Shown here: one piece after another, positions 2,330 to 63,353 of the stretch
Layout of the letters: every line of letters starts with the position of its first letter
How positions within the stretch are numbered: the first letter of the stretch is position 1
DNA from: Hysterangium stoloniferum
Taxonomy: Eukaryota; Basidiomycota; Agaricomycetes; Hysterangiales; Hysterangiaceae
DNA: 64,000 nt
Direction: 5' to 3'
Assembly: GCA_015178975.1 (NCBI GenBank)
Contig: WHVD01000152.1
Location: 124,001 to 188,000 of the forward strand
Position numbers and translations under genes: made by a program
Notes under the pieces: model-generated
Seen by the model: only the letters and a program-made list of their open reading frames with translations
What the model was told of the DNA's origin: nothing
Databases searched by the model: none

Positions 2330-2973
2330 TGTAAAGGGTATGCATATATGCATACCTGGACTAAGGAATAATAGCTGGATTATAGTACTTTATTATTTGA
2401 CTTTTATTTTCTTTCTTTATATTCTTTCTATATTTTGAGCACACCTTGATTTTGTAGTTCGAAGCTTTGTGTATACGTATGGGCGCTCTCGGTGCCAAAA
2501 GAGACAGACAACTTTTACCCAGCAGACACCACCTCGTAAACGACCCAGATGTCAAATAGTGAGAGGTGTCAAGGGTAACATTTCAACTACCTTTAAAGGT
2601 AGTATTCTCTTGCATACTAACGTACTTCGGACTCGAACCGCGAAGGTCGAGTTCCAATCTAAGGTCTTTGCGCTAGTCGACATTATAGTCGACTCGCGCT
2701 ATTATTTCTTTACTCTAGATATTCAGCTTCGCGTTGATTATCTATTTAACATCTAGCTACGAGTTGTACTGTGAAGGTCAACTCTTTCATTCTTTCATTC
2801 TAGTCGTCAAGAGCAATGTACAGTTGCTCTTGTGACGCATAGCGTGTCTTCTTACTAGTACAGCTTGTCTAGTAAGCTACGGTATTGTACTGTACGGTCA
2901 ATATCTGCTAATAGTAGTTGAATAGACACTATTCTTCGTATATCGAACGGTCAGAATCTATCGACTCTTCACA
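2330..2973 (+). repeat. 5' LTR of element A (type A)
   Basis: Starts TGTAAAGGG and ends CTCTTCACA. Close to 13368-14012, but most differences are C-to-T or G-to-A at CpG sites (for example gacgtcgaatagcgag in the 3' copy reads gatgtcaaatagtgag here). It contains the ordered hairpins described in the findings. The 24-bp palindrome seen in the 3' LTR has lost one base here. Confidence 0.93.
2385..2465 (+). promoter_or_regulatory. pyrimidine/T-rich putative LTR core promoter
   Basis: Between the first LTR hairpin and the conserved TAGTTCGA motif lies a T/C-rich, TATA-like stretch (ttattatttg, tttctatatt). The equivalent part of type C, E and F LTRs is also T/C-rich and ends in AGTTCGA. Fungal promoters often have CT-rich tracts before the transcription start. 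That transcription starts near TAGTTCGA is inference. Confidence 0.35.
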
Positions 2974-3049: not shown

Positions 3050-6000
3050 ATGACTACGGGCAAGAATCAAACATCTAGGCCTTCATCAACGCCAGGTAGC
3101 TCCATGCCTCGTCAAAAATCTTTTAACCTAGAACAACCCCGTAATGTCACCCTGAGGAAATCTTCATCGACTTTTCAAGGATCAGCTCCTCCGGAGGATT
3201 CCCCCGGAGTAGTAGCTGGATCATCTACGAACATTCCCCAGCTTCCTCCAGGATCACCTCCTCCAGAGGATTCCCCCGGAGTAGTAGCTGGATCGTCAAT
3301 GAACATTCCCCCCGATCCACCTGAGGAACGCTCATTACTCGAGCAGTTGGACACCCCTGGAGTTAACGTTGAGTCTAATTGAGCACCCACGCCCGTTCTC
3401 AGATTCCCTCCGAGACAGGTCATCCTTAAGCAGTTCCTCGGAGGTCATATGGTTTACGCCCAGCCCATCGATTACAAATGGGATATGTACTACACCGATC
3501 GAATCCCCGAGGATCAGGTTACCCCCTTTGTGGAGGAGTACAGTACGGATTACCCTATTCTACTGGAGACTGTAGCAGTCTGGTTAGGGCGTTATCAAGC
3601 GATTTTATCGGCGCGGGATTTATTCACGCGACCAGGGAACCTTGAGGATTTGACCCAATCGATTCCTGAATGGTCGAACGAGGTGACGACTACTATGGAA
3701 GGAGGAAGAAGAATTCTCAAGTGGGAGGTGTTTTCTCTGTTCCTTGAAGCACTTCGTATGCATGATGATGTGCTACAGATCCTGCATGTCCTGCTTGGCG
3801 GAGATCATGTTGTGCCTAAGGTTGACTACCAGTACATGTACATCCGTATGTTGGAGGAGTCTCTCAATGGAGTCACGCCGAATCTATCGCTGGCATACCT
3901 CACTTTAAGAGGTTGGTTGAAGTGAAACCAAAGAAGACTTGATAAGATGGTTTTAGAGGTACTTCTCCCCTATAACGACTCGATCCAGGTCCCTGATTCA
4001 CCTATCTCCACGACCAATTCGTTCGTTCGCAACTTAAACGGGTCCCCTGATACTCGTTTTCTGCATTCTCTCAACTGTCCCGTAATATTGGAGGATTTTC
4101 CACTGGACTTGAGGACGCAAGTGATAGAACGCCTTCAGGAGAAGAGGATTGAGGTCTGCACTCCCTTCCATCAACCCCAGCCGTGTCGACTTCTGAACGC
4201 GACAGAGAGCGAGAGACAAATCGCGATGGAACTGGGCCTAACGTCTCTCCAGGGAGATCACCGCTCTCGCGTCGCATTTGAGGGAGTCTCCAATGGCCCT
4301 AACTTCAGGGATGAAGTGACCACTCTCAGAAACCGATCAGTCGCCAACAAGGGTCGACCGTCCTTCTCCACGGCATTCACTGAGGGCATAGCTGGCCCAG
4401 TTGCTGGTCGAGGATTGCTTAATCCAGACGGTCCCCGCCATTCTCTACCGATCACTTCAAACCCTTTCTTGCCATCAGGAGGACCCCCTAGCGATTCATC
4501 TGGGAGTTCGAATACTTCAGACCGGGGAGGGAACTCAGGACGTGGGGAACGCCACAATGGAGTGCCTAATACCCCTTTTCGAACTCCGATGCGGTCTCGA
4601 GCTAGCGCGCTTACTGATGACTTACCTAAGGACAAGAAGGTCACTCTTAACACCAACGACCTTAAGATCAAATGGTCTGATCTCCCTGAATACGATGGAT
4701 CTCAATCTGAAGCCCTGGACTATATCATGGATATCATGAGTCTCGCGGAGATATCAGACTCTATGAGTGCGATCTTAGGAGTTGCTCTACCAAGACGACT
4801 CAAGGGGCACGCTAAGGTCTGGTGGAGCACCTTAGACTGTGAGCATCATACTGAATTCAGTCAATCTCATGGGTCGTTTCTTTGGGGTATCGTCGAAGGA
4901 TTGCTTGGAACTTGTTGGCGTGAATCCTTAGCCTTAGAATGGGAAGCTATGAAATTTCGATAGGCTGGTCACGATCGTGAGACACCCGTCCACTATATCC
5001 AATGGAGAGTTAAACTTTATCGTTTCCTGTACGGGTTCCACCAGGACAGAGGGGATGAGACACGCAGACTCATTCTCACACTGCCTACGGAATGGCTCTA
5101 CCTTCTTCAAGGACAACCCATCGATGATATCATGAGTTTACAGACTTATGCTAATAACCTGCAAGAAGCTCTGATTAACGCTTGGGTCCAAACACACCGG
5201 GAACATTACAGGTTCCAGAAACCGCGTGTAATGTTATCGGAGGGTCAAGAATTGGATTTTAGAGTCACCGGCGACTCCTCTTCACCTAACCATATTCTCG
5301 TTAGTGAGACTAACGAGAGAGGCTCGACGAGAAGGACCGTTCCAGACGTCGCTGATCCAAAACAGGGAAAGTGTCACGGAAAAATGTTCTTCGAGAGGAG
5401 TAACAAGAGGAGTTCGGTCAAACCCACCAAGGAATGTTGGATATGCGGAAGTCCGGAGCATTTTAAGATAGACTGCCCTCAAGCTGGCAAAATGTCTCAT
5501 TATGTCTCTATCAACAAATGCTCCGCACAGGATATGTCGGAGGAAGCTGAGGAGCAAAGGTTATATGAAGCGGTTCATGGACTATCTATACAAGGACAAG
5601 TAAATAACTCTGATGACGAATTGACTTTTGTTTCCATTTATTCGCCCCATGTCGAAGACAAATTAGTGAGGGAGGAAAATCGAACGACTGGTGAAGCTCT
5701 TCTGTCTGAAGCTTACGTATCCATACTCGCCGCAGATTTCTTCGAAAAAGGAGACCGGCTGAGTGCTTATCGGCAGGACCTTGAAGGCCTGACCGAGGAC
5801 TACTGTCAGACTGGAGATTCTCACGAACAAATCAGTTCGAATTCACTCTGTTCGCCTGGAGCTGATGTTGACACGTTCCCGTTTGATCCCAGGAACCCCC
5901 CCAATTTACTACCGTACGAGAACTCGGATTCGGAGGACAGCGACGATGATCCAGTATTGGATTCCCCTTCGAAGCATGTTCCTTGCCAAAGTGAACGCAG

Positions 6001-9000: not shown

Positions 9001-9884
9001 AAAGGACCAGGTTTTCAGGAATCTCTACGCTCTAGATACCCCTTCACCCAACGCGGTTGTTACTCCTTCTCACTACTTCGTGGGAGCAAACCGACTCCTG
9101 TACTTTCGCGACTCGGACTGGAAAAGTCGAGTCTGTGTACCCAGAACCATGATTAACTCGATTCTAAGGTTGGTACATGATAACCCTTTTGAGGGAGCAC
9201 ACGCCAGAGGCCAGCGGTTGTTCAACCTGATGAAAGACCGGTTCTTTTGGCCAAGAATGCTACAAGATTGCGTGTCGTACGCGCGTACCTGCGACATCTG
9301 CCAAAAAACCAAAGTTGATCGGACCGCTCGTCAAGGAGCCCTCAGACCGGCTGACGTACCTTTTAGGCCATTTGAGGTAGTTTCTATGGACTTAATCACT
9401 GGACTACCCGATTCAGGAAAGGATTCGTATTCCGCAGTCTTCGTCGCCGTTGATAAATTGACGCGTTACGCTATTACAATACCTACCTTTTCGAACCTTA
9501 CGGCTGAAGGATTCGCACGAATATTTGTCAAACAGGTAGCAAGCCCCTTCGGACTGCCCTCTCGAATAATCTGTGACCGGGATAAGAGATGGACCTGCAG
9601 GTTTTGGTGGGAAGTCTGTAAGATCTATGGTACCACCCTTGCGGTATCTTCGGCTCATCATCCTCAAACGGATGGGCAAATGGAGAATATGAATGCGACC
9701 ATAGAACAGATGCTTCGAGCCTATTGTGCCTCTGCTAAGGAAAGCTGGTCCCAGTGGATTGAAGTAGTTGTTCACGCATACAACTCGACTGTTCACAGTT
9801 CCACAAACTACGCCCCGGCCTTCTTATTAATGGGATACCTTCCAAGAGGAATGTCTCGAGTCCTAGGAGGTGACGAGCCCCTAG
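3050..9884 (+). pseudogene. gag-pol polyprotein of element A (three in-frame stops)
   Basis: One reading frame runs from ATG 3050 to 9884 with no frameshift. It is interrupted only by TGA (3380-3382), TGA (3923-3925) and TAG (4961-4963). Order: a Pro/Ser-rich N-terminus with a duplicated PPEDSPGVVAGSS segment; Gag (about 3450-5300); a CCHC zinc knuckle (CWICGSPEHFKIDC, about 5435-5476); aspartic protease (RMDTGADLSLIS, about 6203); reverse transcriptase (YIDDIVVFS, about 7739); RNase H (YTDASDFALGC, about 8180); integrase HHCC (CDICQKTK, about 9291) and catalytic core (MDLITGLP, ICDRDKRW, HPQTDGQ). The frame resumes after the solo LTR at 10364-10950. The stops look like C-to-T decay. Programmed readthrough is less likely because TAG 4961 falls inside Gag, before the zinc knuckle. 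Confidence 0.92.
3175..3321 (+). repeat. short tandem duplication in the Gag N-terminus
   Basis: Two copies of a ~72-bp unit containing ggattcccccggagtagtag encode PPEDSPGVVAGSS followed by (T/M)NIP. Only the spacer differs. Confidence 0.8.
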
Positions 9885-10358
9885 TGTGAGGAGTATGCTT
9901 TTACCACAGTTTCATTGTGGTAAAACACTCCTTTTATTTCATTTATATTTTACATATTCTATTCATATTTTACTATCTTTCATATTCTTCGAATATCGCA
10001 TATTTCATTAGTTCGAAGCATTGTGTATACTTGTGGGTGCACTCAGCACCAATTAGAACTCAGACACACTTTAACCCAAGAACCACCACTCGTAAGACAC
10101 AAACTAGGTCTACTACGAGTGGTGATCAGGGTAACGTGTCAGCTACTACATAGGTAGCATTATCTGAACTACTGAATACTTCTGGCCTCGAACTATAACA
10201 GTCGAGGCCTCCACTCGAACCATCGCACTCGTTGACTCCTTCGTCATCTCGTGCTCTTTCTCTCACTTTCTCTTATATTGCACCGAATAGGTCAATATCT
10301 TTCCTTTCTACTCATTTCTTCGTATATAGAACGGTCTGAACTTCTACCACTCTTCACA
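9885..10358 (+). repeat. solo LTR type E inserted in integrase of element A
   Basis: 474 bp, TGTGAGGAG...CTCTTCACA, flanked by perfect CCTAG duplications (9880-9884 and 10359-10363). Removing it plus one CCTAG restores the pol frame, and the inverted copy A2 shows the uninterrupted version. It holds several hairpins, including TTTTACCACA/TGTGGTAAAA just inside its start. Confidence 0.95.
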
Positions 10359-10950: not shown

Positions 10951-11296
10951 CGGGATATATGCGCTCAAGGAATCATCTATTCCATCTCTTTCGTAACTTC
11001 CTTTCAGAAATATCTCAGTTATTCAGTGAGCCATCTCATTGGCTTTTATTCTTTTTCATTTTTCTATCCCTTCGGTTGATTGGGACAACCACTAATTGGT
11101 AGCGGACACATTTCCCCAAAACCTGGCCACAATTAATGAATTTTATTTAACGACCAACCGAGTGGAGTTTCAATTCAATATATATAAAAAAGTACACATA
11201 AATTCGCATAAATTTTCTTTATCTTTCACACCACGTCCTTCACCTATCTACAGCCCTTCCCTCTATCTTCAACTTCACCACTTTTATCATGCTATA
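10951..11296 (+). other. spacer between pol and third ORF of element A
   Basis: About 350 bp, A/T- and pyrimidine-rich with repeated ttcttt/tttcac stretches. An open frame runs through from 11096, but the inverted copy A2 supports only the methionine at 11297 as the start of the next ORF. It may hold a promoter or splice acceptor for that ORF, but no firm signal is visible. Confidence 0.4.
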
Positions 11297-13342
11297 ATGC
11301 TCCCTTTCCAACAAAACAAGCAAGTCCTCCCTAAGTTCAAAAAGGTCCCACGAGCCCCGACAGCCAGTACATCCACGACTGGCGGGGGATTCATCACCCA
11401 CATGCCTCGTACAGACAATGTCGAGAGCAATTGGGGTACCCAAGAATCAACCCCCCTGTCGACTTTCCCCTTTGGTGATGAGCTGGGGGGAAATACCGGT
11501 ACGGATTGGAGCAAGCCGTTAGGCCCCTCCGTCAGACCGTCATCTGAGGAAGTCGCTGCTATCATGCGGAAGCAGGAAATGTTTATGGAAGAACACAACA
11601 CAAGGAGGCTCACCCGCAAAAGAGAAAGGCGTGCTGAGTATAGAAGTCAACAGGAGGCGAGGGGAGCAAGAGAAGGAGTCCCCTCCAAGCAGCAGCGGCG
11701 TGAGTACAGAGCGCAATTCGGAAACAGAGCTTCCGTGCCGATCCTTCCCCCCACGGGAGAGAAATGGGCCGACTTCGCGGAGACCGATGATAGTGAGGGT
11801 GGGACGCCTTGCATTAGGATGACGGGAACCAAGAGCTGGAAGGAGAAGGAGGGTACCATCTTTTACGACTGGGAGCTACTTCGACGCATTAAGTTGCAAC
11901 GCATAGTTCTTACCCGAGGGGACGGTCAAACGTTGCCCCAACAAGAAAAAGGATACCATAGGGGACCAATTGATTTTTCCTCGGATGAGGATGAGGATGA
12001 GGACGAGAACAGGAATGGCGTGTATAGCATCCGATCTCTGGGAGAGGATTGCCATGAAGGGTTCCTTCTCCCGTCTAAAGTTCGCTTCGTAACCAGCGAC
12101 CCCAACCAAAGACAAATGCGGAGACTGTCATCCAGAGTATGGAGGGGTCACCGCCCTAGTCAACAGTCACTGGAACGCAAACCTTCCACGATTCCGGTCC
12201 CACATCTCTCGCCAACGTCGAGGCCCCTTCCCATCATTCACCCTACACACACTCGCTCAGCCCTGATTCTAACACCTCATTTACCTCCCTCTTCAAAAGC
12301 TGTACCGGTCCCAACCTCACTTAGGATGTTGAGGCCCCCTCCCATCCTCCACCCGGCACACACTCCCTCAGCCCAACGCGAACCTTCCCCGATTCTGGCG
12401 CCTCGTCTCTCTCCCTCCCCGAAAGCTATACCGGTACCGACCCAACTTCTGCCGTCACCGGGTATCCCTCCCGACTCTCCGTATTCATATTGTGTGTCCT
12501 TGGGTAGCCCTATCCAGGACCTTCCACCAGAGCGAATGGATGTCGATTTGGACCCCCCTACACCGGACATCATCGATCCCATGGCAAGCAGAAAGGCGAA
12601 GGAGATGCAGAAAGCCACCACTCCTCTCCGAGAACAATCCCCTATTCCCGTCCTTGACAGCCCGGTTCCCCTCACTGAGCCCGTATCCACAACTTTCTGG
12701 ATGCGAGTAGCTGTCAACTACCCTTCCGAACAGTTTCCTGTCAGAAGGGTGCTATCACAGCTCGTGCCAGTACTTCAGCAACCGGTCCTTCAAGGGAGCC
12801 TCAAGGGTTGTCGCAGTCTGGCTCCGTTGTCAGAGATAATGGAGGATTTCTATCTCTCATTCGAGGATCTCGCAGAGGGGAAGAACTTTGCACGAGCAGC
12901 ACAGGAGATTAAACTCTCTATGTTCCGGCACATCATAGTGGAGCTTCACTGTCTGCCCCCAGACTCAGCGAATGTCCTCTCTATTGCTGGCTTAGTAGAT
13001 TTACTTGAGGCCCTCATCCTGACGCCTCCCACAGAGACCACCATGCAGCCACATGCTCCTGCCCCACTGCCCGCGTCTTCGTTTCCCCTCCCCAATGCTC
13101 CTCTTCTCGCGCGGATTTCCGCTCCACCGGTTAGTGTCCGCGCAGTCGTTCGTTGCAGAGAGAAAGCCTACAGACGATGGGCCGACTCCTTGTACAGGAA
13201 TTCTAGTGATTTGGCTCGGGCGAGAATAGCTGAATCCTTCAGAGTAAAAAGGGAACGATGGGGAAACATCATTTTGGACCTTGGGGGATCCTCACAGGAA
13301 GCTTGGGGCGGCATCCCAGATGCTCTTCGACACCTAGTATAG
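11297..13342 (+). CDS. third ORF of element A, unknown function
   Basis: About 681 residues from MLPFQQNK to a TAG at 13340-13342, placed where retroviruses carry env. I see no signal peptide, transmembrane segment or known enzyme motif. N-terminal third: basic, helical (RKRERRAEYRSQQ). Middle: an acidic stretch (SDEDEDEDE) and a long Pro/Ser-rich tract of repeated units (PIPVPHLSPTSRP, HPAHTPSA). C-terminal ~220 residues: a compact predicted helical domain from FWMRVAVNYPSEQF to LGGSSQEAWGGIPDAL. That domain recurs in A2 (-), in element B (14520-15226) and at 59412-59768 with clear divergence, so it has been kept as protein across two LTR families. A structural, nucleic-acid-binding or chromatin-related role is possible. 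No function is assigned. Confidence 0.8.
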   Translation: MLPFQQNKQVLPKFKKVPRAPTASTSTTGGGFITHMPRTDNVESNWGTQESTPLSTFPFGDELGGNTGTDWSKPLGPSVRPSSEEVAAIMRKQEMFMEEHNTRRLTRKRERRAEYRSQQEARGAREGVPSKQQRREYRAQFGNRASVPILPPTGEKWADFAETDDSEGGTPCIRMTGTKSWKEKEGTIFYDWELLRRIKLQRIVLTRGDGQTLPQQEKGYHRGPIDFSSDEDEDEDENRNGVYSIRSLGEDCHEGFLLPSKVRFVTSDPNQRQMRRLSSRVWRGHRPSQQSLERKPSTIPVPHLSPTSRPLPIIHPTHTRSALILTPHLPPSSKAVPVPTSLRMLRPPPILHPAHTPSAQREPSPILAPRLSPSPKAIPVPTQLLPSPGIPPDSPYSYCVSLGSPIQDLPPERMDVDLDPPTPDIIDPMASRKAKEMQKATTPLREQSPIPVLDSPVPLTEPVSTTFWMRVAVNYPSEQFPVRRVLSQLVPVLQQPVLQGSLKGCRSLAPLSEIMEDFYLSFEDLAEGKNFARAAQEIKLSMFRHIIVELHCLPPDSANVLSIAGLVDLLEALILTPPTETTMQPHAPAPLPASSFPLPNAPLLARISAPPVSVRAVVRCREKAYRRWADSLYRNSSDLARARIAESFRVKRERWGNIILDLGGSSQEAWGGIPDALRHLV

Positions 13343-13367: not shown

Positions 13368-14012
13368 TGTAAAGGGTATGCATATATGCATACCTGGACT
13401 AAGGAATAATAGCTGGATTATAGTACTTTATTATTTATCTTTTATTTTCTTTCTTTATATTCTTTCTATATTTCGAGCACACCTTGATTTTGTAGTTCGA
13501 AGCTTTGTGTATACGTATGGGCGCTCTCAGCGCCAAAAGAGACAGACAACTTTTACCCAGCAAACACCACCTCGTAAACGACCCAGACGTCGAATAGCGA
13601 GAGGTGTCAAGGGTAACGTCTCAACTACCTTTAAAGGTAGTATTCTCTTGCATACTAACGTACTTTGGACTCGAACCGCGAAGGTCGAGTTCCACTCTAA
13701 GGTCTTTGCGCTAGTCGACATTATAGTCGACTCACGCTATTATTTCTTTACTCTAGATATTCAGCTTCGCATTGATTATCTATTTTACATCTAGCTACGA
13801 GTTGTACCGTGAAGGTCAACTCTTTCATTCTTTCATTCTAGCCATCAAGAGCAACTGTACAGTTGCTCTTGTGACGCATAGTGTGTCTTCTTACTAGTAC
13901 AGCTTGTCTAGTAATCTATGGTATTGTACTGTACGGTCAATACCTGCTAATAGTAGTTGAATAGACACTATTCTTCGTATATCGAACGGTCAGAATCTAT
14001 CGACTCTTCACA
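13368..14012 (+). repeat. 3' LTR of element A (type A)
   Basis: 645 bp, TGTAAAGGG...CTCTTCACA. Best-preserved plus-strand type-A copy. It contains a perfect 24-bp palindrome (13847-13870, half-site AAGAGCAACTGT) and four bulged hairpins at 13669-13690, 13799-13822, 13893-13912 and 13920-13944. The next base begins element B sequence. Confidence 0.93.
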
Positions 14013-15226
14013 CACCCTCACCCGCATCCAAGCCTTCTCCAGCACCACAGCCAACCCCACCCCTCCACACATCACCTGACCCCCTTGTCGCCACCCGCTC
14101 TACCCGGACACCATTGCTCCCTGCAGTGTTGGACACTTCCCTTGTTTCCTCATCAGTGCGGAGTCCACCGCCTGCCTCTCCCTACTCCCCTTGTGTTTCC
14201 CTGGGGTGCCCCATTCAACAACCTAACGTTACATTAATGGATGTTGATCACCCTACCCCAGAAATCCTCGCGATGCCTATGGAGGAAGTCCTCAAGGCAC
14301 CTCCTTCAGTCACGGAGGTCTCCAAGGAACCTCCCCCAGCAATGGATGTCTTCAAAAAGCCTCCCCCCTTAAGCGAAAAGACGAAAGGGAAGCGGAAAGC
14401 TGTTCAGGCTGATGAGCCCCTGGTCATTGACCCTCCCCCGGCCAACCCCATTCACAGCCCCCCACCACAGCTGCCCTCTCCCTCTCACTCTCGGGATACA
14501 GCTGGCTCCTCTCGTCTTTTCCAGTCAAGTTGGATGCGTGTGTCCATTAATTACCCCTCTGACATCTTCACTGTGGGACACATGCTAACGTGACTAGGAC
14601 CAACCCTGCGGCACCCTCTTCTTAAAGGGCATATTCAAGGGTATAGCAGGTCTCTCACATTGTCAGACCGCATGAGTACATTTTACTTATGCATCAATGA
14701 CCCTAAGGAACAGCTGCGTTTAGTGGAGGATATCGAACGGGTGGAGCTCTCCATATTTCGGTCCCTGCTCATCAACTCCTCTTGTGTTCTTCCTGAGCAT
14801 ACACCAATCCACTTAGCCGTGGACCTCGTCGACTTGTTGGAGCAACTGTTGTCAGATTCTGACACCTCGGGAGGAATTCCCCCTGGTGGAGACGTGCGCT
14901 CCACACCGCTTCTCACTCCTACCCTGCCATCATTACACCCTCAGCCTCCTCTCATTGCCCACATTACAGATGCTTCTGCTGATTGCATTCGCGCCATCAT
15001 TTGAACATGCCAGAAGGCCTACAGTCGTTGGGTCTCATCGATCCAGAAGCTGGATGGGTTGACATCCGCCAATGATGTTTCGAAGTGGGAGGACATTGCT
15101 CTTTCCTTTCACGCCAAGCATCTCACCTGGGGAGACGCTATCCTACACCTTGGAGGTTCGTCGCAGGACGCATGGGGAGGAGTTCCAAGTGTCCTTGACA
15201 CCTTCTTTGACATAGCTCTTTGACCT
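14013..15226 (+). pseudogene. element B third-ORF C-terminal remnant
   Basis: The frame resumes after element A in a Pro-rich region (SPYSPCVSLGCPIQ, cf. SPYSYCVSLGSPIQ in A), then WMRVSINYPSDIF, and ends with ILHLGGSSQDAWGGVP. TGA codons at 14591-14593 and 15002-15004 and a frame change near 14600-14660 break it. It shows that the third ORF belongs to more than one LTR family. About 200 codons expected between the two B fragments are missing around the insertion of element A. Confidence 0.75.
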
Positions 15227-15403: not shown

Positions 15404-16045
15404 TGTGAAGAGTCAATAGATTCTGACCGTTCAATATACGAAGTATAGCGTTTATTCAACTACTACTAGCAGGTATTGACCATTCAGTACAATACCATAG
15501 ATTACTAGACTGGCCGTACTAGTAAGGAGACACACAACGCGTCACAAGAGCAACTGTACAGTTGCTCTTGATGGCTAGAATGAAGAATGAAAGAGTTGAC
15601 CTTCACGGTACAACTCGTAGCTAGACGTAAGATAGATAATCAATGAGAGGCCGAATATCTAAAGTAAAGGGATAATAGTGCAAGTCGACTATAATGTCGA
15701 CAAGCGCAAAGACCTTAGAGTGGAACTCGACCTTCGCGGTTCGAGTCCAAAGTCTGTGAGTATGCGAGAGAACACTACCTTTATAGGTAGTTGAGACATT
15801 ACCCTTGACACCTCTCACTATTCGACGTCGGGGTCGTTTACGAGGTGGTGTCTGTTGGGTAAAAAGTGTCTATTGTTTGGCGCCGAGAGCGCCCATATGT
15901 ATACACAAAGCTTCGAACTACAAAATAAGGGTATACTCAAAATATAGAAAGAATGTAAATGAAGAAAATAAAAAGTAAATAATAAAGTACTATAATCCAA
16001 CTATTATTCCTTAGTCCAATTATGCATATATGCATACCCTTCACA
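15404..16045 (-). repeat. 3' LTR of A2 (type A)
   Basis: Reverse complement of the type-A LTR. Plus-strand left end TGTGAAGAG, right end CCCTTCACA, next to the G-run of the A2 polypurine tract. Confidence 0.92.
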
Positions 16046-18556: not shown

Positions 18557-21500
18557 TTAAATTTTGAACAGCACCTTGTATGCCCTCAGAAGTGCCGGAG
18601 CATTTCTGAGGTTAGTGCTGCTTAACCATGAATCCTCTTTGGGTCCATAATCTTTCCAGCGCACCCTAAATAGCAGACAATTTCGCTGTTTTCTATGTCC
18701 AACAATAGCTTCAACTTCATATTCTTCATGATCTGATTTCAACTCTCTTAGGTTCTCAAGTTGTGGTCTTGGACCTAGGTTGGGAGGAGAGGGTTGATAT
18801 TTCCGCAGATGATCCCGATTAATGACTGGCTGCATCGGATACTCTGGGGGAATCTTAAGCCTAAATACTTGAGAGTTCAATTTCTCAAGGACCTCGAATG
18901 GTCCAATCCTTCTTTGTATTAGTTTCTTCCCCATTCCCTTGACTTCCACCAGTTTGAGGGAGTGGGGGTTCACCAATACGAAGTCTCCCTCGGAGATATC
19001 TTCTACAGGTCTTTGCTTCTTGTTATATGCTCGTGCTTGAATCTCTTGGGCTCGAGCAATGGAATCCCGAGCCATCTGTCGATGATTCTCTAGTTTGAGA
19101 ATCCATTGGTCAGCCATAGGGCTGTCTGATAGTTCTCTAGGAACTAGGGGTTCGTCACCTCCTAGAACTCAAGACATCCCTCTCGGGAGGTATCCCATTA
19201 ATAAGAAGGCCGGAGGGTAGTTCGTTGAACTGTGAACGGTTAAGTTGTACACGTGGACTACCACCTCAATCCGTTGGGACCAGCTCTCCTTAGCAGAAGC
19301 ACAATAGGCTCGAAGCATTTGTTCTATGGTCGCATTCATATTCTCCGTCTGTCCATCCGTTTGGGGATGATGGGCAGAAGATACTGCAAGGGTGGTGCCA
19401 TAAATCTTACACACTTCCCGCCAGAACCTGCAGGTCCATCTCTTGTCCCGATCGCAGATTATTCGAGAGGGTAGTCCGAAGGGGCTGGCCACCTGTTTAA
19501 CAAACATTCGTGCAAATCCTTCAGCCGTAAGGTTCGAGAAAGTAGGTATTGTAATAGCGAAACACGTTAATTTATCAGCGGCGACGAAAACTGCTGAATA
19601 CAAATCCTTTCCCGAGTCAGGTAGTCCAGTGATCAGGTCCATAGAAACTACTTCAAAAGGCCTAAAAGGTACGTCGGCAGGTCTGAGAGCTCCTTGACGA
19701 GCGGTGCGATCAATTTTGGTCTTTTGGCAGATGTCACAGGTACACGCGTACAACACGCAATCTTGCAGCATTTTTGGCCAAAAGAACCGGTCTTTCATTA
19801 GGTTGAACAACCGCTGACCTCCGGCGTGCGCTCCCTCAAAAGGATTATCATGTACCAATCTTAAAATAGAGCTAGTCATGGTTCTAGGCACGCAAACTCG
19901 ACTTTTCCAGTCCGAGTCACGAAAGTACAGGAGTCTGTTTGCTCCTACAAAGTAGTGAGAAGGAGTAACAACCACATTGGGCGAGGGGGTATCGAGAGCG
20001 TAGAGGTTTCTGAAGACTGGGTCCTTCGAGTATCCTTCTAGAAATTTCTTTATATATCCCTCCTCGATACTGATTAGCAGCTGAGGATGACGCAGTGCAA
20101 AGTTGGACTCGTCCTCCTGATCGTCCCTCACTGCGTTATGAAAATCCCATTCCGACTGTTGAACCTTCTGAGTTACTCCAAAAGGTTCCATGGAATTGTT
20201 TATGATTGAGAAGACTGCCTTCTTAGCAGGTTCGTCCTTCCATAGTTTTTCCTCAGTGCTTTTGTCCATAGAGGTCGAGGTGATAGCTTGTAAATCATCT
20301 CTAATAGGGCTCACGAAGGCTGGTACCCGAGGGAGTCTGGACAATGGGTCCACATTACTGTGAACTCTTCCTGCTCAATGTAAAATTTCGAGACCTGGAA
20401 ATGCAGCGTATATCGCCCCCCATGTGGCTAGTCGACGATTAGTGTTCTCGTATGATCTAGCCCATTGCAGAGCTGCATGGTCCGTAATGAGTAGAACGTG
20501 TTCACCTTCAATAAAGGGTTGGAAGTGGACTAGTCCCTCCTTTGCTGCTAACGCTTCCCGTTCAGTGGCAGAATAGTTACGTTCAGCGCTTTTCAGCGTG
20601 CAACTCCAGTATGCAATGACTCGTTCAACGGTAACTTTGGTCGCCTCAAAAGTGGGTCCCCATGAATCCAACAACTCAATCTCGGGCTGTTTAGTTTTGT
20701 ACCGATGAACAAAGGATGGCACATCCTGCACACGGTCAAAAGCTAACTTGGCTTGGGCATAGATTTTAGTGTCCATCAAGTCTCCTAAAGCCATCTTCTG
20801 GACTTGTTGGAGACAACAACCTAAGGCAAAATCCGAAGTGTCCGTATACAATCGATAGGGCATCCCACTAACTGGATGTCCCAGCACTGGTGCTGATCCT
20901 AGTGCGGTTTTAACATCCTCATAAGCTCGGACATGTTCAGCGGTCCATGTCCAGGGTGTTCCCTTTTTTAGGAGTGAGAATAAAGGGGACACCATCCATG
21001 AATAGAATGGTATATATGCCGAAAAGTAAAGGACCATTCCAAGGAACCGTTGTAGTTCAGAGACCTTAGTGGGTGGGGCCAGTTCCAATATAGTGCGAAC
21101 TTTCTCTTGATGGGTCGAAAAACCCAACCTGGATACTTTATGACCCAACAACAAGATCGAATTATATCCGATAAAACATTTCTTGGGAGAGAGAGTGATA
21201 CCGGCCAAAGCGATAGTGCCAAGCACCTGATTCAGGTGGAGCAAATGATCATCCCAGTTCTTAGAGAATATGACTATGTCATCGATGTAGACTAGACAAA
21301 AAATCCACAAGTAGGGTGCTAAGACTGTTTGCATGATGCGCTGAAATGTGGAGGGGCTGTTTCTGAGCCCGAACGGCATCCTTTTAAATTGCCACAGCCC
21401 TCTATGAGATCTAAAGGCTGTTTTGGGCTTATCGTTCTCCAACATTTCTAATTGAGTAAACCCAGCTAGCGCGTCGAAAGAAGAAAGAACATTTGATCCC

Positions 21501-22427: not shown

Positions 22428-22826
22428 TATCAGTCGAAACTCAATCCCTATCAGTCGAAACTCAATCCCTATCAGTCGAAACTCAATCCCTATCAGTCGA
22501 AACTCAATCCCTATCAGTCGAAACTCAATCCCTATCAGTCGAAACTCAATCCCTATCAGTCGAAACTCAATCCCTATCAGTCGAAACTCAATCCCTATCA
22601 GTCGAAACTCAATCCCTATCAGTCGAAACTCAATCCCTATCAGTCGAAACTCAATCCCTATCAGTCGAAACTCAATCCCTATCAGTCGAAACTCAATCCC
22701 TATCAGTCGAAACTCAATCCCTATCAGTCGAAACTCAATCCCTATCAGTCGAAACTCAATCCCTATCAGTCGAAACTCAATCCCTATCAGTCGAAACTCA
22801 ATCCCTATCAGTCGAAACTCAATCCC
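22428..22826 (+). repeat. 21-bp minisatellite, left block (19 units)
   Basis: Nineteen head-to-tail copies of TATCAGTCGAAACTCAATCC plus one C, all with TCGAAAC. Intact type-C LTRs carry one copy. The unit is the 3' arm and loop of a bulged hairpin plus the next few bases. Confidence 0.97.
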
Positions 22827-22830
22827 TATC

Positions 22831-23471: not shown

Positions 23472-23473
23472 CT

Positions 23474-23851
23474 ATCAGTCAAAACTCAATCCCTATCAGT
23501 CAAAACTCAATCCCTATCAGTCAAAACTCAATCCCTATCAGTCAAAACTCAATCCCTATCAGTCAAAACTCAATCCCTATCAGTCAAAACTCAATCCCTA
23601 TCAGTCAAAACTCAATCCCTATCAGTCAAAACTCAATCCCTATCAGTCAAAACTCAATCCCTATCAGTCAAAACTCAATCCCTATCAGTCAAAACTCAAT
23701 CCCTATCAGTCAAAACTCAATCCCTATCAGTCAAAACTCAATCCCTATCAGTCAAAACTCAATCCCTATCAGTCAAAACTCAATCCCTATCAGTCAAAAC
23801 TCAATCCCTATCAGTCAAAACTCAATCCCTATCAGTCAAAACTCAATCCCT
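23474..23851 (+). repeat. 21-bp minisatellite, right block (18 units)
   Basis: Eighteen copies of the same unit, every one reading TCAAAAC instead of TCGAAAC. The last unit is followed by normal type-C LTR sequence. Confidence 0.97.
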
Positions 23852-24140
23852 ATCTCAACTCACGTGGACTACATCCACGCTACTCTATTATTCGACTCTC
23901 TAACTACTCTACTTGCACTCGAGCAGTTATCCAGAATCGCACTTAACTAGTCAATTCTGCTTATTCGTTCTAGCTATCTACCTTACTTTAGATAGCTATT
24001 TCTCTCTACCGTATTGAACTACATAGTCAATACGTGTTCGATCTGTATTAGACTTAGACAGTCAATACATAGTGGTATCGTACTTCAACGGTCAATATTC
24101 TTCGTATATAGAACGGTTAGAACTTCTACCACTCTTCACA

Positions 24141-28531: not shown

Positions 28532-28949
28532 ATAGCAGTCAAGGCCTCCACTCAAATCATCCTTCTTCCCATTCTACTCATTTCTTCATATATAGAACGG
28601 TCAGAACTTCTACCACTCTTCACACTAGCCATCACAAGCAACTACATATATGGTTGCTCTAGTGACACATATCATACTCCCTTACTAGTACTGTTAGTCT
28701 AGTGATCTCTAGTATTGTACTAAATAGTCAATACTTGTTATTGTGCTTGAATAGTCAATATTCTTCATATGTATATAGAGTGGTCAGAATCCAGCAACTC
28801 TTCACACCTGGTATAGAGAGCCAGGTGCATATAAAATGGGGTCTGGAGCCCAGTGGGTTTTCCAGTTCTAACAAATATAAACAAAGAATACTTTAGTTAA
28901 AAAATAGTAGAAAATAAGAGAAAATCTAAGAAATATAATATGATGGAAT

Positions 28950-29312
28950 AGTTTTATTTCCCAGAGAGGGGTACACCTTACTCTCCACTTTGTACTTTTA
29001 CAGTTGAAGTGTAGGACTCTTCATGCAAACTTGCTTGTCAACTGTCATGCTCTTCACTCATCCTACTTCTTCTGGTGAATAGCCTTTCACCTGAACTCTA
29101 CTTAATCTAGTCTATTCAACTGTGATAGTACTGTTAAGGTCTATTCCATTTTTCTTATTCTAGTCACCTCTAGCAACTGTACACTCACTGATGGCAACTA
29201 CTACTACTTTATACCTACCTGTGTTGTACTTTGACAGTCAATACACTTGTATTGTACCTAGAAGGTTGATATTCTTCATATATTGAATGGTTAGAATTCC
29301 TATAACTCTTCA
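28950..29312 (+). repeat. very degenerate LTR-like remnant
   Basis: Retains the LTR style without close sequence identity. Hairpin GTGTTG/CAATAC with bulged T at 29221-29244, then attcttcatatattgaatgg and ctcttca near the end, as in the other LTRs. Confidence 0.5.
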
Positions 29313-31946: not shown

Positions 31947-32623
31947 GTTTAAGTCGAAGATGCAGCCTATAGCTAGGTACCTTTTTATAAAAAGGAATAA
32001 TATTCCTGGGGTAGCGCCATGGGATATGACATACAGGCCACCTTACAAACCACCTTATAAACCAAAACAAATTCTTTGTAATGCAAGTGATCATGAGACC
32101 ACATACTGTTTCGGTCGATGGCGACTTTCCGGGCGAAGGGATCAAGAGGACCTGCAATCTGAGAATGATGTAATAATAGAAAAGAACAACTCTAAAATGA
32201 CATTCATATTGACCTGTTAGGTACGATATGGGACGACCAGGACTTTGGAGCAAGAGTGTAGAACGATCGAGCGACCAACAATTGGTATCGACAACTAGTA
32301 TGGGATCTGAAGTTAAGGAAAGTGAACTGAGGCGATCGATATATAGTTATATGACAAGTACGAGAACAAGAACAGACTTGGGTTGACCTTGAGGATACAA
32401 CTAACGCGATATCGAGATGTCTGGCAATGGGTTTGTAAATGAGGTAAGAGCAGAGTGAGACAGCTTGGTATGTGTCAATTACCATGGAAAATTAGTAATG
32501 TTTAGATATCAAGTACAAGAAAATGCCTGTCCTCCATCATATTGGTATAAATATTCGTCCAAATTAGTGCTTTGCAAGTGCCAGGACGCCCTCAAATCAA
32601 AAATAATTACATCTGCCCATCGT
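31947..32623. other. intergenic, 677 bp
   Basis: Between two minus-strand genes. It should hold the promoter of the epimerase-like gene and the 3' end of the PDI gene. No other feature is seen. Confidence 0.5.
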
Positions 32624-62393: not shown

Positions 62394-63024
62394 TGTGAGA
62401 GGTATGGTGAAATACACTCAGGAAATATAGTCGGATGTGCTCTTACTATATTTCCTTTATTATTTCTATTTTCTCTCTTTCATTATATCTATAATTAGTT
62501 CGATGACCTATGTATGCGGTACATCGACTCTTGTGGGCGCACACACGCCAGACTTATGTATTCTAGCGCCGGTAGTTTAGAACTCAGACACTTTTTACAC
62601 CGCAACCACGACTTACCCAGACACCCGTTAGTGTCCTGTAAGTTGTGATTGGTGTATCATCTCGACCGTCACAGACGGGCTTTAGCTATTCATTCAAACT
62701 GAGTTTCGAACTGTATCAGTCGAAACTCAATCCCTATCTCAACTCGCGTGGACTACATCCACGCTACTCTATTATTCGACTCTCTAACTACTCTACTTGC
62801 ACTCGAGCAGTTATCCAGAATCGCACTTAACCAGTCGATTCTGCTTATTCGTTCTAGCTATCTACCTTACTTTAGATAGCTATTTCTTTCTACCGTATTG
62901 AACTACATAGTCAATACGTGTTCGGTCCGTATTAGACTTAGACAGTCAATACATAGTGGTATCGTACTTCAACGGTCAATATTCTTCGTATATAGAACGG
63001 TTAGAACTTCTACCACTCTTCACA
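62394..63024 (+). repeat. solo type-C LTR in element D pol
   Basis: 631 bp, TGTGAGAGG...CTCTTCACA, flanks CTACT and CTGCT (one A/G change). Reference copy for hairpins at 62701-62728, 62817-62842, 62894-62918 and 62929-62952, plus a first hairpin GGAAATATAGT/ACTATATTTCC. Confidence 0.95.
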
Positions 63025-63029
63025 CTGCT

Positions 63030-63353
63030 CCTTCGCATTATTTCATCGGCAAGAATAAGCTACTGTTCTTTCAAGATTCGGCCTCAAAAAGTCGAATCTG
63101 TGTTCCTAGCAGCATGACGTCAACCATACTCAAGCTGATACATGATAACCCCTTCGAAGGAGCTCATGCAGGTGGCCACAGACTCTTTGGGCTGATGAAA
63201 GACCATTTCTTCTGGCTGAGGATGTTGCATGACTGTGTGGCGTATGCTCACAGCTGCGACATATGCCAGAAAACTAAGGTCGATCATTCCGCTCGACAAG
63301 GAGCTCTTCGACCCGCAGATGTACCCCTAAGGCCGTTTGAGGTTGTCTCGATG
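63030..63353 (+). pseudogene. pol of element D, integrase zinc-binding domain
   Basis: Continues PSHYFIGKNKLLFFQD, then HDNPFEGAHAGGHRLFGL, CDICQKTKVDHSARQGALRP and FEVVSM. This is the HHCC module of Ty3/gypsy integrase. The frame is open between the two solo LTRs. Confidence 0.88.

Follow-up and report, generated by a model that had tools for sequence, protein, structure and literature searches.

A bulged hairpin of constant core but variable stem recurs in Ty3-type LTRs of Hysterangium stoloniferum

The operator of phage MS2 is a hairpin with a bulged A, an AUYA loop and a two-pair upper stem, and the VBS of the yeast L-A totivirus, also with a bulged A on its 5' side, is bound by Gag-Pol and acts as a portable encapsidation signal. 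Among retroelements, the Ty1 5' domain and the packaging hairpins of retroviruses offer a comparison, with structured 5' leaders that have packaging and priming functions, and we know of no such leader in which one hairpin is arrayed in copies whose stems are unrelated. Multiple packaging signals have been described in the RNAs of MS2 and of satellite tobacco necrosis virus (PMC3593212), and the VBS of L-A/M is named among packaging or replication stem-loops (PMC5618225). In yeast Ty3, both UTRs and POL are needed for the localization and packaging of the RNA, and its cis signals are described as not precisely defined (PMC11381356). For the question of how an element of the Ty3 type selects its own RNA, the lineage described here offers a compact, countable element with a clear core.

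The hairpin-bearing stretch is 64,000 nucleotides of H. stoloniferum DNA, hereafter the window, and consists of a nest of Ty3-type LTR elements; the genome-wide counts given below cover the 111 Mb assembly of this fungus. The features of the Ty3 type (Metaviridae) are present, namely the pol order of zinc knuckle, RNase H and integrase, a primer-binding site after the 5' LTR and a purine tract before the 3' LTR. In Pfam, the zf-CCHC zinc knuckle, which lies close to the beginning of the ORF on the pol side, scored 21.2 bits against a cut-off of 20.8, and many among the homologs listed for the RNase H-integrase piece have PF17917/PF17919, PF17921 and PF00665. The first ORF, presumed to be gag from its position, gave no Pfam match, nor did the third ORF after pol in a type-A element (11096-13342), considered as a candidate binding protein; when 8000 candidates were scored against the piece 11294-13339 of the latter, a single homolog emerged, and it belongs to the same species. 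No tRNA gene was found in the window, and no relatives were found in viral contigs searched with an RT piece. The LTRs of types A, C, E and G have similar ends, the last 62 bases of C, E and G being 66-94% identical, and the LTR types are thus related. Their positions, and those of the hairpins they carry, are given below.

13368..14012, plus strand: type-A 3' LTR (TGTAAAGG...CTTCACA), with four hairpins, A1 to A4
13667..13692, plus strand: hairpin A1, GGACTCG / bulge A / ACC GCGAA GGT / CGAGTTC
13798..13823, plus strand: hairpin A2, GAGTTG / bulge T / ACC GTGAA GGT / CAACTC
13891..13914, plus strand: hairpin A3, TTACTAG / bulge T / ACA GCT TGT / CTAGTAA
13920..13944, plus strand: hairpin A4, GGTATTG / bulge T / ACT GTAC GGT / CAATACC, third pair U.G
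2330..2973, plus strand: type-A 5' LTR, hairpins at 2629-2654, 2760-2785, 2852-2875 and 2881-2905
15404..16045, minus strand: type-A LTR, hairpins at 15723-15748, 15592-15617, 15502-15525 and 15472-15496, all minus
62394..63024, plus strand: type-C LTR, hairpins at 62702-62727, 62817-62842, 62894-62918, 62928-62953 (shifted bulge) and 62958-62983
9885..10358, plus strand: type-E solo LTR, hairpins at 10184-10209 and 10274-10299
28564..28805, plus strand: LTR fragment G, limits approximate, hairpins at 28682-28705 and 28711-28735
29220..29245, plus strand: hairpin of an old LTR remnant, with weaker ones at 29123-29146 and 29248-29273
9109..9134, plus strand: integrase hairpin in pol (DSDWKSRV), second copy at 19894-19919, minus strand
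63074-63099: stem relative, core broken

The LTR at 2330 is read as a 5' LTR because the primer-binding-site-like sequence TGGTGACCCGAGCC comes 3' of it, and the LTR at 13368 as a 3' LTR because a G-rich tract (GGGGGG) lies upstream of it. The outer flanks of these two plus-strand copies are unlike, with AAGGT at 2325-2329 and CACCC at 14013-14017, so that the pair may not delimit a single insertion. The type-E solo LTR has the flank repeat CCTAG and splits a pol ORF.

Like the signals of MS2 and satellite tobacco necrosis virus, these hairpins are small, occur in many degenerate copies and have a largely free stem sequence (PMC3593212). The MS2 parallel drawn in the first-pass annotation of this DNA holds for the general plan, a bulged base just under a small apical stem-loop, but does not extend to membership of that class: any of the four bases can be bulged, there are three pairs in the upper stem, AUYA is absent from the 76 distinct loops listed, and the copies are clustered in the LTR. 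With the VBS of L-A/M they share the setting of a fungal capsid-type element whose RNA has a recognition stem-loop with a bulge on the 5' side, the difference being that L-A/M is a double-stranded RNA virus with one or few sites. Yeast Ty3 is likewise a Ty3-type element, but the passages on its signals describe no repeated bulged hairpin, and the word 'bulge' is absent from the text (PMC11381356). A search of Rfam returned no hit at the gathering threshold in the window and none at E <= 1 in 13368-14300, and narrow searches of the titles and abstract starts of open-licence PMC papers gave no earlier description of the element.

All 13 hairpins named by the first-pass annotation were recovered with a 26-position covariance model, a fit that is partly by construction, as the model was trained on 18 hairpins that include several of the 13; the hairpin with the shifted bulge (62928-62953) was a weak match, with 16.9 bits and an E value of 0.029. 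Most of them were also recovered by a plain scan for the structural plan, which counted 33 hairpins for the plus strand of the window and 13 for its minus strand. With the core left free, the two strands together yielded 61 bulged hairpins, of which 41 have the G.AC core, and the means in 10 dinucleotide shuffles were 9.7 and 0.2, respectively. Orientation was evaluated in the window, in LTR blocks defined by blastn that amount to 11,094 different bases: these contain 46 sense hairpins versus 0 antisense, and when the blocks were shuffled 200 times, 0.18 hairpins were counted on average and never more than 2. Outside the blocks, 52.9 kb contain 7 hairpins, counting both strands together, of which two are the integrase hairpin. 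An equal density in shuffled LTRs or in pol was named at the outset as the finding that would speak against the repeat; in the form of this comparison made here, the shuffled LTRs and the rest of the window are nearly without hairpins. These data strongly support the presence of constant-core, variable-stem RNA hairpins, several per LTR. Outside the LTRs, the matches at 5519, 6636, 16828 and 22005 may be due to chance, and a lone core-bearing hairpin on the minus strand at 32206-32230, outside the blastn LTR blocks, is perhaps the remnant of another LTR type.

The core reads U-Y-G, one bulge of any base, A-C-Y, a loop of 3-5 nt and R-G-U-C-R-A, with 3-4 further pairs beneath it whose sequence varies and whose complementarity is kept. 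The core GNAC...GTC proposed earlier is indeed constant, yet it was drawn too narrowly: among 103 distinct hairpins from the window and from loci L001-L068, which were picked without use of the core and three of which duplicate parts of the window, U-A occupies the second pair beneath the bulge in 95, and in a wider count that includes core-picked loci it does so in 124 of 134. The pair adjoining the closing G-C is U-A in 44 of the 103 hairpins, C-G in 32, A-U in 12, U.G in 4 and G-C in 1, and it is unpaired in 10, of which 7 are C.A. The bulged base is U in 51, A in 27, C in 20 and G in 5, its placement in GAAC (bulge A) being ambiguous between two A's. Where the loop has five bases, its third position is A in 25 of 33 distinct cases, and where it has four, in 15 of 21.

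The core requires its bulge. Across the window and L001-L068, 311 cores have one bulged base, none lacks it and 3 have two. Genome-wide, the pattern TYGNACYN5RGTCRA has 6,075 matches versus 137 for the reversed pattern, and the four-base-loop core 2,869 versus 222, which gives 8,944 matches for the two patterns together against 359 for their reversed controls; the core without a bulge occurs in 79 places, under its reversed control of 242. These genome-wide counts pool LTRs and other places, and with many copies per family the matches are non-independent. The first reading had also stated that a primary-sequence repeat finder would miss the element; its stems are unrelated, as was said, but a plain IUPAC pattern of the core finds the hairpins. 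Such an element is a repeat defined largely by shape, with unrelated stems and nearly 9,000 core matches in one genome.

Covariation in the outer stem, proposed at the outset as a check, was evaluated in sets of different selection that ignore kinship among the copies, and the outer stems proved complementary beyond expectation. In 71 distinct cases selected by their core, outer pairs 1-4 form in 67, 66, 61 and 45 cases, versus 36.5, 33.2, 55.4 and 27.3 predicted by column composition. For pairs 5 and 6 the counts of 14 and 26 are no higher than the 16.6 and 28.0 expected, which indicates a stem of defined length. By random re-pairing of 57 cases, taken one per different 5' outer tetramer under a looser selection that includes chance cores, the average number in which all four outer pairs form falls from 19.2 to 2.1, with a maximum of 7. 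As an illustration, 18 hairpins hand-chosen for pairing have a covariation score of 0.675 versus 0.178 when shuffled, with both sides changed in 6 of 10 pairs and the other 4 invariant.

Related LTRs could in principle have inherited a few inverted repeats, by chance or shared descent, and the similar ends of the A, C, E and G LTRs attest that they are related. Nevertheless, shared descent would not keep many different outer stems complementary (19.2 versus 2.1), and hairpins are absent or almost absent from shuffled sequence and from the antisense strand. The re-pairing test and the LTR-block shuffles exclude this explanation at the level of the window, and its probability is close to nil.

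The same outer stems bear on a reading at the DNA level, in which the repeats are inverted-repeat sites for a DNA-binding protein and have no RNA role. Repeated insulator sites bound at the DNA level are found in Drosophila gypsy, and the core TYGNAC...GTCRA is itself an imperfect inverted repeat. The 46-to-0 orientation would be compatible with a DNA site too. However, a DNA dimer site needs no complementary outer stems that are mutually unrelated, and this disfavours the reading. Mispairs add a strand test: at the third upper pair, U.G occurs in 21 distinct hairpins and C.A in 4, as expected for sense RNA, which speaks against a DNA site, whereas at the Y-R pair C.A (20) exceeds U.G (10), the opposite of the sense-RNA expectation. 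Genome-wide, the Y-R pair has a weak excess of U.G, with 621 versus 513 for C.A (controls 36 and 20), so this pair lacks a clear sense-RNA bias, as a DNA site would allow; the strand test is mixed there, and the decay of old copies may blur it. Taken as a whole, a pure DNA site is very unlikely.

If the hairpins act as RNA, they should lie in the transcript, and by eye they are downstream of an AT-rich, promoter-like part of the LTR, from which we infer that transcription runs through them. Folded as short RNAs, 13 hairpins (12 of the 13 named earlier plus the integrase hairpin) adopt the form with a single bulge on the 5' side, with z from -1.0 to -6.1, the weakest two being at -1.6 and -1.0. 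Three LTR leaders beat 100 of 100 shuffles each in folding, with z of -6.2, -7.5 and -6.8. Of 11 hairpins, 8 are present in the long-context minimum-energy folds of the leaders; the 3 that are absent belong to the C leader, which has 5, and A1 has its base altered in its leader. Upstream of the hairpins, a larger multi-helix domain is predicted at 13540-13645, followed by a stem CTACC...GGTAG, and type E is similar in parts.

A leader so strongly structured overall would also suit another step in the life of the RNA, such as dimerisation, placement of the tRNA primer, strand transfer or the translation of a long structured leader, and the loop of A4, GUAC, is self-complementary. The self-complementary loop that marks a retroviral-type dimerisation hairpin is nevertheless rare: in a tally that includes loci chosen by their core, self-complementarity was seen in a single one of 22 distinct four-base loops, and a four-base palindrome in 5 of 43 distinct loops of five bases. 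Kissing-loop dimers are therefore disfavoured as a shared role, and several copies of one core are a better match to a recognised site. These other RNA steps are unlikely to be the main function.

To place the element among the lineages of this genome, integrases were surveyed (the best 150 of 2,662 candidates), and other Ty3-type lineages were read 3' of the integrase. This comparison set comprises seven loci, L089, L090, L092, L093 and L094 together with the shorter L115/L116 and L117/L118, of four integrase types sorted by eye, in about 33 kb. A purine tract followed by TGT marks a candidate LTR start in six of the seven, L118 being without a clear one. The covariance model found no hairpin at E <= 1 in L089, L090, L092, L093 and L094, and the strict scan of the seven loci found no sense-strand hairpin and one antisense hairpin, in L092. 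In L091, which is of the same type as L089, hairpins appear only about 3.5 kb beyond the candidate LTR start, where they look like part of nested C- and A-type LTRs. On these loci, the hairpins seem to follow the A/C/E/G lineage.

This distribution is relevant to the nature of the partner. Among the usual targets of cellular RNA-binding proteins are small hairpins that combine a bulge with a constant core, and many copies per transcript would suit a host protein too, either exploited by the element for export, stability or translation or acting to repress it. Seven loci of four other integrase types without a sense-strand hairpin argue against a general need of retroelements in this host for such a protein, and an element-encoded partner, namely Gag, fits better; a host protein is an unlikely reader.

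The reading that we prefer, in which our confidence is evenly balanced, is that of a multi-copy cis-acting RNA element of one Ty3-type lineage, probably bound by Gag for packaging or assembly, the structure being well supported and the protein and its function proposed. Several traits together fit a protein-binding array: the core is constant and the outer stem free, the bulge is required, each LTR has several copies, and the hairpins seem confined to a single lineage. In the sense transcript, each hairpin would present a stem of 6-8 bp, a single bulge on the 5' side, three pairs and a loop of 3-5 nt. The recognised surface would consist of the pairs around the bulge (U-A, Y-R, G-C, bulge, A-U, C-G, Y-R) and the loop A, and the outer stem would contribute by its pairing alone, its sequence being free. 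Several LTR copies and a probable copy in the integrase region would form an avidity array for the protein on the full-length RNA. By the parallels of MS2, the satellite virus and the totivirus VBS, the binder would most likely be the zinc-knuckle Gag that the lineage itself encodes, acting most likely in selective packaging or in the assembly of particles.

The integrase copy deserves separate consideration. In the A type, the DSDWKSRV codons read GACTCG-G-ACT-GGAAA-AGT-CGAGTC, and the counterpart in the C-type integrase has GATTCG...CGAATC; between the two there is one clean compensatory pair, the rest being wobble or mismatch. The integrase tally (19/20 loci plus L082, picked by core) is no test, and the core might simply follow from what the sequence encodes. 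With one clean compensatory pair alone between A- and C-type pol, a firm second site was rejected, and the hairpin is regarded as a probable extra copy of the signal.

The several hairpins per LTR and the one in integrase may amount to a dispersed packaging signal, provided that this LTR part is present in the packaged RNA. A more far-reaching proposal, which we offer tentatively, is a phage-like packaging code of many hairpins, with thousands of copies, stems renewed across LTR types, retention in integrase and reading by Gag; if true, the packaging code of such a retroelement would be legible in the sequence itself. RNAs of 26 nt suffice for binding tests, and if Gag reads the hairpin, its presence would also identify the elements that are able to share particles.

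Other repeats were noted in the same DNA. The type-A LTR contains a perfect 26-base palindrome, CAAGAGCAACTGTACAGTTGCTCTTG, at 13846-13871, between A2 and A3. A 21-nt minisatellite is found at 22428-22830 and 23472-23854, with 19.2 and 18.2 copies and 100% matches, the unit being CAGTCGAAACTC in the left array and CAGTCAAAACTC in the right array. This unit derives from the 3' half of hairpin C1 and its flank, and the minisatellite is interrupted by a type-A LTR with the flank repeat CTATC.
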